A stretch of DNA of 64,000 nt, taken from positions 62,001 to 126,000 of the forward strand of contig NZ_CP023860.1 of assembly GCF_003326015.1 (NCBI RefSeq), written 5' to 3'. Shown here in pieces: positions 10,428-19,157 of this stretch. Every line of letters starts with the position of its first letter. The first letter of the stretch is position 1. The DNA is from Candidatus Thioglobus sp. NP1. Lineage in GTDB: Bacteria; Pseudomonadota; Gammaproteobacteria; PS1; Pseudothioglobaceae. A program made the translations under genes and the position numbers. A model generated the notes under the pieces. The model was not told where the DNA came from. It worked only from the letters and a program-made list of their open reading frames with translations, and ran no database searches.

Positions 10428-10491
10428 TTGAAGAATTAAAATTCATATATATGATATAATATATGTCTTATTAAATCTTATTTTAAGATTT
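10428..10491 (+). promoter_or_regulatory. Predicted suy-hps operon promoter with palindromic operator
   Basis: TTGAAG (10428-10433) and TATGAT (10450-10455) are spaced by 16 bases and could be -35 and -10; an overlapping TATAAT lies at 10455-10460. Just downstream, 10473-10491 is a perfect palindrome, AAATCTTA-TTT-TAAGATTT. Its place near the predicted transcription start suits a repressor site, most simply for the GntR regulator at the end of the operon, or a small hairpin in the leader. The role is inferred. Confidence 0.5.
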
Positions 10492-10529
10492 ATTCAGAAT
10501 TTTTTAAAAATTACGAAAGAGGAGAGCAA

Positions 10530-10811
10530 ATGATTCAATTTATTGTTCATGATGAAGATGATTCCGTTGGAGTTGTTACTGTTGAAGGTGTAAAGGCAAA
10601 CGATACTCTTAGTGGCTGGATAATGGATCAGGATGTTTTGATAGATATCAAAATTAATCAAGATATTCCTATTGGTCATAAATTAGCTATTAAGGATCTA
10701 AATGAAGATGATACTGTCATCAAGTATGGTGTAGATATTGGAAGAACAATTTCAAAGATTGCTATTGGTGATCATCTGCATGTCCATAATGTTAAAACAA
10801 AGAGGTGGTAA
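10530..10811 (+). CDS. suyA: (2R)-sulfolactate sulfo-lyase, small subunit
   Basis: SuyA and SuyB together cleave (R)-3-sulfolactate to pyruvate and sulfite in the cytoplasm. The 93-aa protein is a single SAF-type domain like the N-terminal part of UxaA-family dehydratases. The conserved stretch is [20 protein letters not shown] followed by VHN. A good ribosome site (AGAGGAG) lies 7 bases upstream. The stop overlaps the suyB start by one base, so the two are translationally coupled. General annotation would say altronate dehydratase, but the following hpsN-like gene and the two-gene split point to SuyA. Confidence 0.88.
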
Positions 10812-11980
10812 TGATAGATTTAAATCAAAAAATATATGGTTATAGGCGTGATAATAATAGGGTTGGGATTCGTAATTATGTCGTAATTCTCCCAGTTGAT
10901 GATATTTCAAATGCTGCCTGTGAAGCAGTAAGTAATAACATCAAAGGAACAATTGCCCTTCCTCATCCATACGGAAGACTTCAGTTTGGTGAAGATCTTG
11001 ATCTTCATTTTAGAACCATGATTGGAACAGGATCCAATCCCAATGTTGCTGCTGTTGTTGTAATAGGTATTGAGCCAGATTGGACTCAAAAAATTGTTGA
11101 TGGCATTGCAACAACTGGTAAACCAGTTCAAGGCTTCTCTATTGAAAAGAAAGGAGATATTCAAACGATTGCTGATGCCTCTAAAGCTGCTTATGATATG
11201 GTCCATTACGCAACTGGACTTCAAAGAGAGCCTTGTGATATAAATGAGATATGGGTATCAACGAAATGTGGTGAGTCAGATACGACTTCAGGATTTGGAG
11301 CAAACCCAACAGTGGGTAATGCATTTGATAAACTCTATGAAAAAGATAGCACGCTTCTATTTGGTGAAACCTCAGAGATTACAGGTGGTGAACATTTAGT
11401 TAAAGCAAGATGCGCAAATGATGCTGTTGCTGATCAGTTTATGTTTATGTTTAATCGTTACCAAGATATGATTGAACGTTTTAAAACTGATGACTTATCT
11501 GATTCGCAGCCAACCAAAGGTAATATTGAAGGGGGGTTAACAACAATCGAAGAAAAGGCGTTAGGCAACATTACAAAAATTGGTAAAAAATGTCTCGTTG
11601 ATGGTGTGCTAGATAAGGCGGAGATGCCAACGAGTAAGGGTTTATGGTTTATGGATTCTTCTTCTGCAGCTGCAGAAATGGTTACATTATGTGCAGCCTC
11701 CGGTTATGTGGCTCACTTATTCCCTACTGGCCAAGGAAACATTATTGGAAATCCAATCTTGCCTGTTATTAAGGTGTGTGCGAATCCAAGGACTGTGAGA
11801 ACTATGTCAGAGCATGTTGATGTAGATGTTACTGCTTTATTAAAGCGTGATATCAATATGGACCAAGCTGGTGATATGCTTCTTGAGTCACTTATCCACA
11901 CCTCTAATGGCAGAATGACTGCAGCAGAAATATTGGGACATCAAGAGTTCGTTTTGACGCGCCTTTATGAAAGCGCATAA
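10811..11980 (+). CDS. suyB: (2R)-sulfolactate sulfo-lyase, large subunit
   Basis: This is the catalytic large subunit (389 aa) of the sulfo-lyase, homologous to the C-terminal domain of altronate/galactarate dehydratases. It starts [15 protein letters not shown], the typical opening of the large domain, and contains [20 protein letters not shown] with a likely metal-binding cysteine, then [11 protein letters not shown] and [12 protein letters not shown] chose the ATG at 10811 (sequence TAATG, overlapping the suyA stop), which has AGAGGTGG upstream. An in-frame GTG six bases earlier is less likely. Sulfite released here needs detoxification or oxidation elsewhere. Confidence 0.9.
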
Positions 11981-12010
11981 ATTTAAAATTTTACTAAATA
12001 AATACATTAT

Positions 12011-17267: not shown

Positions 17268-17866
17268 CTCCTATTTCTAACTGCATAGATGCATTTAAGT
17301 GTCTCTGAAATACCTTGAATTATTAGTAAAACAAGGCCTATAAATAGAATACTCTTGATTGGATACATGATTGGCATCCATGAAGTATCCATACCCCTTT
17401 CCATTATCGACCAAGACTTGTAAGCATATTTATAACATGCCCATGAAGCACCAATAAGTCCAGGAAAATAAAATAATATGTAAAGCGTTAAGTCTATTGT
17501 TGCTTGAGTTTTAACAGACCAATTTCGATACATAAAGTCTGCTCGAATATGGACACCTTTTGATAGTGCATAACCTGCACCGAGCATAAACATTGCTCCA
17601 GCACCCATTCTACTTATGTCATATGCCCAGACAGTTGGAGAGCCAAAAAAATGTCTTCCAACTACTTCAATAAACATGGCAACAAATACTGGAACAGTTA
17701 GCCAACATGCAACCTGTCCTATTCTAAGGCTAAAAAGATCAATACCTAGAATAGTTTTTGCCATAATTTTTGGCATATCATCAGGCATAACTCCAGTATA
17801 GGATCTGCCTTCAGCAATCATTTCGTCAGTAATATCTAATTCACCAACCTCTTCCTTATCCGACAT
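17258..17866 (-). CDS. hpsL: TRAP transporter small permease (DctQ type)
   Basis: A 202-aa protein with a hydrophilic N-terminal extension of about 45 residues followed by four membrane helices, as in DctQ. The segment GVHIRADFMYRNW matches the conserved R-x-D region of small TRAP permeases. It pairs with the large permease, whose start overlaps its stop region by 10 bases. The gap of about 200 bases to the binding-protein gene holds a strong hairpin, so its expression probably depends on read-through. Confidence 0.85.
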   Translation of the reverse strand: MSDKEEVGELDITDEMIAEGRSYTGVMPDDMPKIMAKTILGIDLFSLRIGQVACWLTVPVFVAMFIEVVGRHFFGSPTVWAYDISRMGAGAMFMLGAGYALSKGVHIRADFMYRNWSVKTQATIDLTLYILFYFPGLIGASWACYKYAYKSWSIMERGMDTSWMPIMYPIKSILFIGLVLLIIQGISETLKCIYAVRNRRWP

Positions 17867-18003
17867 AATATGTACCTAAAAAAATTATTAAAAATCTTAA
17901 ATCATTGTAACAAAACTAAAGAGTCAAAAAAATACTCAATAGAAGAATATTAATAATTCAATAAGAAAAGACAATATTGAGTTCTATAAAGCTCTCTTAT
18001 TGT

Positions 18004-18042
18004 CAAAAAAAAGTTGCCAACAGTTTTCACTATTGGCAACTT
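18004..18042 (-). terminator. Strong intergenic hairpin downstream of the TRAP binding-protein gene
   Basis: AAGTTGCCAA (18011-18020) and TTGGCAACTT (18033-18042) form a perfect 10-bp stem with a 12-base loop. On the minus strand it is followed by a run of eight T residues (plus-strand A run at 18005-18012). It sits between the binding-protein gene and the permease genes. It would terminate most transcripts after the binding protein and so set a high binding-protein to permease ratio, and would also protect the upstream mRNA. Confidence 0.85.
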
Positions 18043-18068
18043 AAGTTTACAAGTCTTACGATTTATCT

Positions 18069-19157
18069 TTACTTCAAAGTCTTAGCAAAAGCAAGGCCTA
18101 ACTTAGCGTTAGACGATTGAGCTCCTGACCAGAAAGGTACTGCTTTTTCAGCAAAATCTCTCTGTGATGCCCAAACCTCAGCAAAGAATGCATTATCGTC
18201 AGCGTTCTTTTGAAGAGTTGCATTCGCAGCAGCCATAAACTCTACGAAGTAGTCATCAGGAGTATCCATTAGTTGAACACCCTGCTCTAGCAAATCAGCC
18301 ATAGCAATTCCATTTGCGTAGATACGGTTAGACATAGAATCAAGTCTTGCCGCTCTTGCAGCAACATGGATAGCATGCTGGTCACGAGCAGAGATCTTAT
18401 CCCAAACGTCACCATTGATATACATATCAGCATTCACAACATTCTGATGAAGTCCTTGCAAGTAGTAGTACTTAAGAACTTTTTGGAAGCCAAAGTCTCT
18501 ATCAGGCTCTGGACAGCACCACTCTGCTGCGTCAATAACTCCTTTTTCAAGTGCAGGCAAAATATCAGGGCCACCCATAGCTACAGCTGCGACACCAATA
18601 TCAATATAGGTTTGACCTGGGATTCCTGGAGGAGCACGGAATCTAAGTTTACGGAAGTCATCCATACTGTTGATAGGCTCTTTAAACCAACCTAGTGCTT
18701 CTGGACCAACTGGTTGAAGCATCAAACCATGAACATTCAAATCCATCTCATCCCATAGCTGATCATATAACTCTTTACCACCAGCACTGTGGAACCAAGA
18801 AAGCCAAGCGATATTATCAATACCAAGGCCAGCTCCAGCAATTGGTGAACCAAACAGCATTGCCGCTGGGTGCTTACCAGACCAGTAGTGAGTCCATGCA
18901 AATCCACCATCAATTAGACCAGCGTCTACAGCATCGATAAGGTCAGAGTTTGGCACAACAGAACCTCCAGGGAGGACTTCCATCGTTACTCTACCATCAG
19001 TCAATGCAGCAACATCTTCTGCAAAATCTCTAACATAGCCAACTTCACTACCAGTAGAGTTTAATACAGATTGAATTTTTAAATTAACAGCCATAGCACT
19101 TGAGCTAGCAGCAAGTAATGCTATAGATGTCAAAAAAACAACTTTATTTTTAAACAT
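18069..19157 (-). CDS. hpsK: TRAP transporter periplasmic binding protein (DctP type)
   Basis: This is the secreted substrate-binding subunit of the TRAP system. I chose the ATG at 19157 because AAAGGAGAT stands five bases upstream, giving 362 aa. The longer frame to 19235 adds 26 residues ahead of the signal peptide. The signal peptide runs to AMA at residues 21-23. The ligand-anchoring arginine is probably that in RKLRFRAPPGIPG, and AAEWCCPEPDRDFGF belongs to the branch that carries larger organic anions. Location next to suy-hps suggests DHPS or a related sulfonate. Confidence 0.85.
   Translation of the reverse strand: MFKNKVVFLTSIALLAASSSAMAVNLKIQSVLNSTGSEVGYVRDFAEDVAALTDGRVTMEVLPGGSVVPNSDLIDAVDAGLIDGGFAWTHYWSGKHPAAMLFGSPIAGAGLGIDNIAWLSWFHSAGGKELYDQLWDEMDLNVHGLMLQPVGPEALGWFKEPINSMDDFRKLRFRAPPGIPGQTYIDIGVAAVAMGGPDILPALEKGVIDAAEWCCPEPDRDFGFQKVLKYYYLQGLHQNVVNADMYINGDVWDKISARDQHAIHVAARAARLDSMSNRIYANGIAMADLLEQGVQLMDTPDDYFVEFMAAANATLQKNADDNAFFAEVWASQRDFAEKAVPFWSGAQSSNAKLGLAFAKTLK

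Follow-up and report, generated by a model that had tools for sequence, protein, structure and literature searches.

The closest described systems for the use of 2,3-dihydroxypropane-1-sulfonate (DHPS), described as a worldwide and abundant currency of exchange between phytoplankton and bacteria (PMC11131964), are the hpsRNOUP-suyAB cluster of Cupriavidus pinatubonensis (PMC11382572) and the hps clusters of Roseobacteraceae (enzymes in PMC11131964). At most Tara Oceans stations, Roseobacteraceae and SAR11 are reported to contribute the largest share of DHPS dehydrogenase transcripts (PMC11131964), and the route that joins hpsN to SuyAB has been reported in Gammaproteobacteria, with neither Thioglobus nor SUP05 named in the main text (PMC11382572). 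We analysed a window of 64,000 nucleotides from Candidatus Thioglobus sp. NP1 (bases 62001–126000 of a single contig of 1,689,404 bases, 99.94% complete) that contains nine genes of this kind: suyA, suyB, hpsN, hpsO-like and hpsP-like genes, a gntR regulator gene and the dctPQM genes of a tripartite ATP-independent periplasmic (TRAP) transporter. Judged from sequence, they quite probably represent a catabolic operon for DHPS and sulfolactate, the sulfite from which would be oxidised through AprBA/AprM and Sat with a yield of ATP.

The enzyme set is that of the Cupriavidus cluster, in line with the preliminary description of this stretch, which had called the route established in Cupriavidus and roseobacters. 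The comparison was made with plasmid p2 of strain HN-2, in whose record only hpsN and hpsO are named, the others being named by place; identities are 70% for hpsN, 46% for hpsO, 48% for hpsP, 49% for suyA and 74% for suyB. Unlike Cupriavidus, which has the carrier HpsU of the major facilitator superfamily and a LacI-type regulator, the present locus has a TRAP transporter and a GntR protein, and the gene order differs. The Roseobacteraceae clusters of Leisingera and Sulfitobacter bring together a TRAP transporter, hpsN, a short-chain dehydrogenase (SDR) and a zinc alcohol dehydrogenase (ADH), as here, but they continue into genes of sulfopyruvate decarboxylase, which belong to another route, they carry a LacI regulator, and their HpsN is 55% identical. 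A plasmid locus of Paracoccus ferrooxidans has a suyA-suyB-like pair (SuyB 65% identical) beside a GntR gene, with hpsN, SDR and ADH genes nearby; unlike the present locus, it also has an ABC transporter, a putative sulfate exporter and a molybdopterin oxidoreductase nearby.

Passage of sulfonate-derived sulfite to adenosine 5'-phosphosulfate (APS) reductase and Sat has been proposed for Candidatus Taurinisymbion, a taurine-using sponge symbiont (PMC10356861), and for SAR202 (PMC5864207), and some SAR116 genera carry aprABM and sat (PMC8547437). In SAR11, the Apr reaction has been reported, and Sat is said to be absent from most members. The sulfonates described in Candidatus Taurinisymbion, SAR202 and SAR11 are taurine and others, not DHPS, and Candidatus Taurinisymbion uses QmoAB and HdrBC (PMC10356861) whereas aprM is found here. 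Both the DHPS route and the coupling of sulfonates to Apr/Sat are already known, and what may be new is that this lineage combines them: a search confined to literature outside subscription yielded no publication joining the Pseudothioglobus/SUP05 lineage with DHPS use, and the accessible text of PMC10579395 mentions SUP05 and DHPS only separately.

Identity of the locus enzymes

Genes were called from open reading frames (ORFs), families were assigned from Pfam and NCBIfam, and all locus coordinates are window positions (Table 1). The genes from suyA to gntR (10530–15878, forward strand) converge with dctPQM (19157–15936, reverse strand). Spacings on the forward strand range only from a 7-base overlap (suyA/suyB) to a 30-base gap, so that suyA to gntR are likely one operon. 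The gene set given in the preliminary description was found in full where that description had placed it, and its proposal of a DHPS/sulfolactate route is well supported by PDB matches, SuyB and HpsN trees, sequence identities and the conserved gene set. Pfam returned the expected superfamilies for the locus proteins (GD_AH for SuyB, Histidinol_dh for HpsN). These libraries do not separate SuyB and HpsN from their sugar-acid and histidinol relatives, and the names used here were taken from PDB matches, trees and identities.

SuyB shares 74% identity with its positional counterpart in Cupriavidus. A tree of 21 proteins groups it, at support 100/100, with sequences from Cupriavidus, Paracoccus, Rhodococcus and a Hyphomicrobiaceae bacterium; six UxaA-like, altronate and galactarate (UxaA/GarD) dehydratases stand outside this clade, on long outgroup branches. 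SuyA gave no match in Pfam; besides its Cupriavidus counterpart, the Paracoccus gene at the suyA place is 46% identical. The two proteins are separate small and large subunits. Since other split UxaA-like pairs exist, the clade of SuyB is decisive, and this clade is anchored on a Cupriavidus protein that owes its name to its place: the record labels that pair "UxaA family hydrolase", and we took it as suyAB from its position in the published hpsRNOUPsuyAB cluster. The assignment of SuyAB as a 3-sulfolactate sulfo-lyase, predicted to release sulfite from R-sulfolactate in an Fe-dependent reaction, is well supported.

The best solved relative of HpsN is 8v35, a sulfopropanediol 3-dehydrogenase, with 696 bits over the full length, against 250 bits for the best histidinol dehydrogenase. 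The diagnostic motif of HpsN is G-R-Y-A/S-H in place of G-S-A-P-L of HisD, together with a catalytic Glu-His and an Asp (PMC11382572). Indeed, the protein carries GRYAH at residues 120–124, E316 and H317, and D350 and K351. Both tree and PDB scores place it nearer to characterised HpsN than to HisD; many forks of the tree are open, so that it does not point to a donor of hpsN. The genome has its own true HisD at 943.6 kb, in which the GRYAH-type motif is missing, and a third paralogue of the family at 184.1 kb, also without GRYAH. An NAD+-dependent R-DHPS 3-dehydrogenase is thus a well supported prediction for the hpsN product.

A reading of SuyB as an altronate- or galactarate-type dehydratase and of HpsN as a histidinol dehydrogenase, both serving other pathways, would agree with the Pfam names and with NCBIfam, where HpsN exceeds the cut-off of the hisD model (413 against 244 bits) and galactarate dehydratase is listed for SuyB below cut-off. 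However, SuyB reaches only 132 bits against the galactarate dehydratase cut-off of 731, and the hisD model is broad, because the third paralogue passes it too (436 bits). Tree position and score contradict the dehydratase role of SuyB; the 8v35 score, the GRYAH motif, the tree and the presence of a separate HisD do the same for HpsN despite the hisD match. The two phylogenetic checks proposed in the preliminary description thus came out in favour of its names, and we give the reading of other pathways virtually no weight.

For the SDR, the PDB scores are tied between HpsO (8wwf, 225 bits) and gluconate 5-dehydrogenase (229 bits). It is 46–49% identical to the SDR adjoining hpsN in Cupriavidus, Paracoccus, Leisingera and Sulfitobacter, and its place matches theirs. 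The ADH, which also lies beside hpsN and has its Cupriavidus counterpart at the hpsP place, scores 245 bits with 8wwd (next best 143), an entry that we infer to be HpsP from the neighbouring entries 8wwe and 8wwf. Three relatives share a similar extra gene between suyB and hpsN. The one tested belongs to the Ldh_2 family; its best NCBIfam model is L-sulfolactate dehydrogenase (232 bits, below the cut-off of 500), with which the PDB disagrees, as another Ldh_2 enzyme reaches 219 bits and L-sulfolactate dehydrogenase 164 bits. The insert leans towards sulfolactate.

Table 1. Predicted features of the hps-suy locus (window positions)
Feature	Position	Strand	Length	Basis or remark
suyA, sulfolactate sulfo-lyase small subunit	10530..10811	+	93 aa	similarity and place
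suyB, sulfolactate sulfo-lyase large subunit	10805..11980	+	391 aa	Pfam, identity, tree
hpsN, R-DHPS 3-dehydrogenase	12011..13315	+	434 aa	PDB match, motif, tree
hpsO-like SDR	13319..14080	+	253 aa	identity, synteny; PDB scores tied
hpsP-like zinc ADH	14077..15087	+	336 aa	PDB match, synteny
gntR, GntR/UTRA (HutC-type) regulator	15105..15878	+	257 aa	Pfam/NCBIfam, conservation
dctM, TRAP transporter large permease	15936..17267	-		Pfam
dctQ, TRAP transporter small permease	17258..17866	-		Pfam
dctP, TRAP solute-binding protein	18069..19157	-		Pfam; putative substrate
AT-rich promoter/operator element upstream of suyA	10444..10463	+		TATAAT hexamer, palindrome CATATATATG; predicted function
AT-rich element upstream of dctP	19249..19272	-		ATATATAT ... 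ATGTATACT, TATACT hexamer

The third HisD paralogue (L081:10044-11354; genome 184.0–185.4 kb) has GKFPM at the GRYAH position and is an uncharacterised relative kept across the genus. Its neighbours, named by eye, are SDR, LacI, SnoaL-like, cupin and RraA-like genes, and a similar cluster lies on a Labrenzia plasmid. Near it, genes resembling a fused L-carnitine dehydrogenase/thioesterase (L081:14029-15507) and a beta-keto acid cleavage enzyme (L081:13115-14026) were also recognised by eye.

Proposed fate of the sulfite

No family of sulfite exporters or sulfite dehydrogenases was matched among the nine locus proteins in Pfam or NCBIfam, as the preliminary description had noted for the locus. 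Outside the window, about 30 kb upstream of suyA, sat, aprM, aprB and aprA lie in a row at about 38.4–42.9 kb of the contig. Sat scores 506 bits (cut-off 387), AprB 194 (136) and AprA 998 (642); the naming of AprM follows gene position and membrane character, and all its family matches lie far below cut-off. An aprM directly before aprBA is the order found in Apr lineage I of sulfur oxidisers (PMC2211403), and the present genome has this arrangement together with sat. The earlier suggestion that sulfite may become an electron donor therefore gains genomic support from sat-aprM-aprB-aprA.

Among the other genes that had been named for a genome search, dsrA gave no match in this genome (weak matches in 12 of the 29 genomes of the genus, none over cut-off), and the SoxB model gave 113 bits against a cut-off of 550, which no genome of the genus exceeded; neither cut-off was reached in any of 14 control genomes, so that the models are the sole basis of these two negatives. 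No Oxidored_molyb protein was found, and a sulfite oxidase of SorA/SUOX type was rejected on this ground. A SoeA-like enzyme was not found either, soeABC having been sought through its molybdopterin subunit only: the three molybdopterin proteins are a formate dehydrogenase (over cut-off), an S/N-oxide reductase-like protein (below cut-off) and NuoG, the last read by eye from sequence and neighbours. Sulfur oxidation of sHdr type was rejected on a single match to the CCG domain (window 34002–34259), which argues against HdrB-type subunits only. RuBisCO is lacking, though present in 25/29 genomes of the genus and detected in five controls. The characterisation as a sulfur-oxidiser-type genome consequently holds for the affiliation with a SUP05-related group and for sat and apr, and does not extend to reverse Dsr or Sox and RuBisCO, the marks of a chemolithoautotrophic sulfur oxidiser, which were not recognised in this genome. 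The host looks like a heterotroph with a sulfonate-fed sulfite-oxidising module rather than a classical sulfur-oxidising autotroph.

Organic sulfonates are the visible feed of this sulfite oxidation: besides DHPS, they probably include taurine, by way of Xsc. This protein scores 1013 bits in the genome and is over cut-off in 21/29 genomes of the genus, and xsc adjoins a gene for alanine dehydrogenase and one for an aminotransferase that matches an omega-aminotransferase model best.

The following sequence of steps is proposed. DHPS and/or sulfolactate would enter through the TRAP transporter, and HpsN would convert R-DHPS with 2 NAD+ to R-sulfolactate (chemistry from PMC11382572). HpsO and HpsP, judging from their relatives, would channel the DHPS enantiomers, which they are described as interconverting (PMC11382572); alternatively, they oxidise R- and S-DHPS to sulfolactaldehyde (PMC11131964), a route for which an aldehyde dehydrogenase would be needed. 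SuyAB would cleave R-sulfolactate into pyruvate, bound for central metabolism, and sulfite. Cytoplasmic AprBA, tethered by AprM, would combine sulfite with AMP to form APS and pass two electrons to the respiratory chain, and Sat would convert APS and pyrophosphate into ATP and sulfate. Gene identities are predicted from sequence, and from them we infer the reactions, the flux to Apr/Sat and the control by GntR. If this holds, the consumers of DHPS would also include a marine gammaproteobacterium in which the SuyAB route is complete, one that could release sulfate instead of sulfite and gain ATP from sulfur. Organic sulfur may be the host's source of sulfur energy, and feeding by sulfonates would offer an account of why a bacterium without dsr retains apr and sat.

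A gene of the nitrite/sulfite reductase family in a related genome (G003, L083:10040-11671) is missing from the matching place of the present genome (L080:4570-4651, the one place examined), which lies between ferredoxin-NADP reductase-like and TauE-family genes.

Competing readings and distribution

Several observations weigh against the proposed sequence of steps, in addition to the hisD match of HpsN discussed above. The apr/sat and hps genes lie in separate operons, and apr occurs without hpsN in one genome (G026), so that the link would be metabolic and not one of gene order. hpsN is missing from 3/11 near-complete genomes of the genus, and the TRAP proteins share only 22–28% identity with their counterparts from marine Alphaproteobacteria, encoded next to hpsN or to an HpsN-like gene. 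Among the dissimilatory sulfur steps searched, only sulfite oxidation was found, sulfide:quinone reductase, persulfide dioxygenase and similar enzymes lying outside the search. Finally, the genome encodes three TauE-family proteins and one YeiH-family protein, over the Pfam cut-off and below that of TIGR00698, all possible sulfite exporters. If one of these exported the sulfite from DHPS and sulfolactate, Apr/Sat would serve another sulfite source; in Paracoccus, the "putative sulfate exporter" does adjoin suyAB. However, none of the four candidates lies beside hps or xsc. One TauE gene is about 12 kb from sat-apr, inspection by eye of the ORFs of 200 amino acids or more surrounding the two others showed no sulfur gene, and the TauE family is broad, being present in 14/14 control genomes. 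We regard export as decidedly unlikely.

It is also conceivable that the locus in nature chiefly serves sulfolactate, or a different C3 2-hydroxy sulfonate, imported as such, with DHPS as a side route. The solved relatives of DctP include 7ug8, named ketoacid-binding, and 7e9y, named lactate-binding, and DctP is distant from the roseobacter TRAP protein beside hpsN. On the other hand, hpsN, hpsO and hpsP make sense together for DHPS only, and their order is kept, which leaves sulfolactate as main substrate an unlikely reading, if one to be kept in mind. Going beyond the preferred reading of sulfonate-derived sulfite oxidised by Apr/Sat, AprMBA-Sat may have outlived Dsr, Sox and carbon fixation and may by now depend entirely on sulfonates of algae and animals, processed by SuyAB and Xsc; the hps-suy genes would have come in by transfer once this branch had parted from its sulfide-oxidising relatives. 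For this state, "organosulfonate-fed sulfite lithoheterotrophy" would be a fitting term. The late transfer is suggested by the distribution of hpsN over the 83 genomes of the family, in which a gene at the level of at least 86% identity occurs in 19/29 genomes of this genus, in 2/2 of a second genus and in 0/52 others. We hold this extension to be somewhat short of an even chance, because the search did not extend to persulfide dioxygenase and further inorganic routes to sulfite.

Within the genus, one further genome has a fragment of hpsN at a contig end and seven have none. Two others encode HpsN-like proteins 54–55% identical, with the motif GRYSH and no suyAB within 20 and 12 kb around the genes; a relative of the DegT-type aminotransferase of window 6142–7353 lies near both. 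In the 11 near-complete genomes, hpsN (at least 86%) occurs with aprA in eight, neither gene is present in two and aprA alone in one, a co-occurrence that is weak as a statistic because of shared ancestry.

The records nearest in hpsN belong to Candidatus Pseudothioglobus, Candidatus Thioglobus, the SUP05 cluster and several entries named "gamma proteobacterium", some of them placed in Pseudothioglobaceae, and the host is most probably a Pseudothioglobus. Nineteen named records with hpsN 87–94% identical were compared. All nine genes occur in the same order in 14 of them, and four are cut by contig ends. The other, on a contig of 5,146 bases, has hpsN followed directly by the gene of window position 21039, the stretch from hpsO to a gene of the GMC family being missing, which a deletion or a misassembly could explain. 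Across four loci and the nine genes, nonsynonymous divergence (dN) was 0.009–0.247 and synonymous divergence (dS) was at least 0.8 in 32 of 36 comparisons. Among 24 other hpsN loci, 23 have the SDR and ADH genes and one has suyAB; neither this GntR nor this TRAP transporter was found in any of them. The GMC-family oxidoreductase, choline dehydrogenase-like, adjoins dctP (window 19378–20997) and is 76–86% identical in 14/19 named records; it is without evident role in DHPS use despite its conservation with the cluster.

Transport and regulation

The TRAP transporter is predicted to import DHPS and/or sulfolactate. Against the roseobacter TRAP proteins beside hpsN, identities are 22% for DctP, 27% for DctQ (78 residues, one species) and 25–26% for DctM, values too low for orthology to the roseobacter-type DHPS transporter to be assigned. 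The GntR/UTRA protein is likely the local regulator.

A scan of the locus found 38 promoters against 34.5 expected from shuffles and six terminators against 5.6, that is, no excess of either. Between dctP and dctQ, a stem of 14 pairs with a T run (18011–18042, reverse strand) may lower expression of the permeases relative to the binding protein, terminators overall being no more frequent than in shuffles.

Upstream of suyA, ATGATATAATATA is invariant in 20/20 aligned rows (two of them duplicates) between flanks that vary; this element has one match at up to three mismatches in the 64 kb, where 0.04 are expected. The ATATATAT element ending in ATGTATACT was read by eye in 16/16 rows upstream of dctP (one duplicate). 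Both elements contain CATATATAT, three dctP rows having G in place of the first C of the shared motif. In the window, CATATATATSA occurs at these two places only, with three matches (one site on both strands) against 0.20 expected; the motif was picked after the upstream alignments had been viewed, which makes the chance figures of both pattern searches optimistic. The simplest reading is that the shared AT-rich element would be a common operator or promoter for the GntR regulator.

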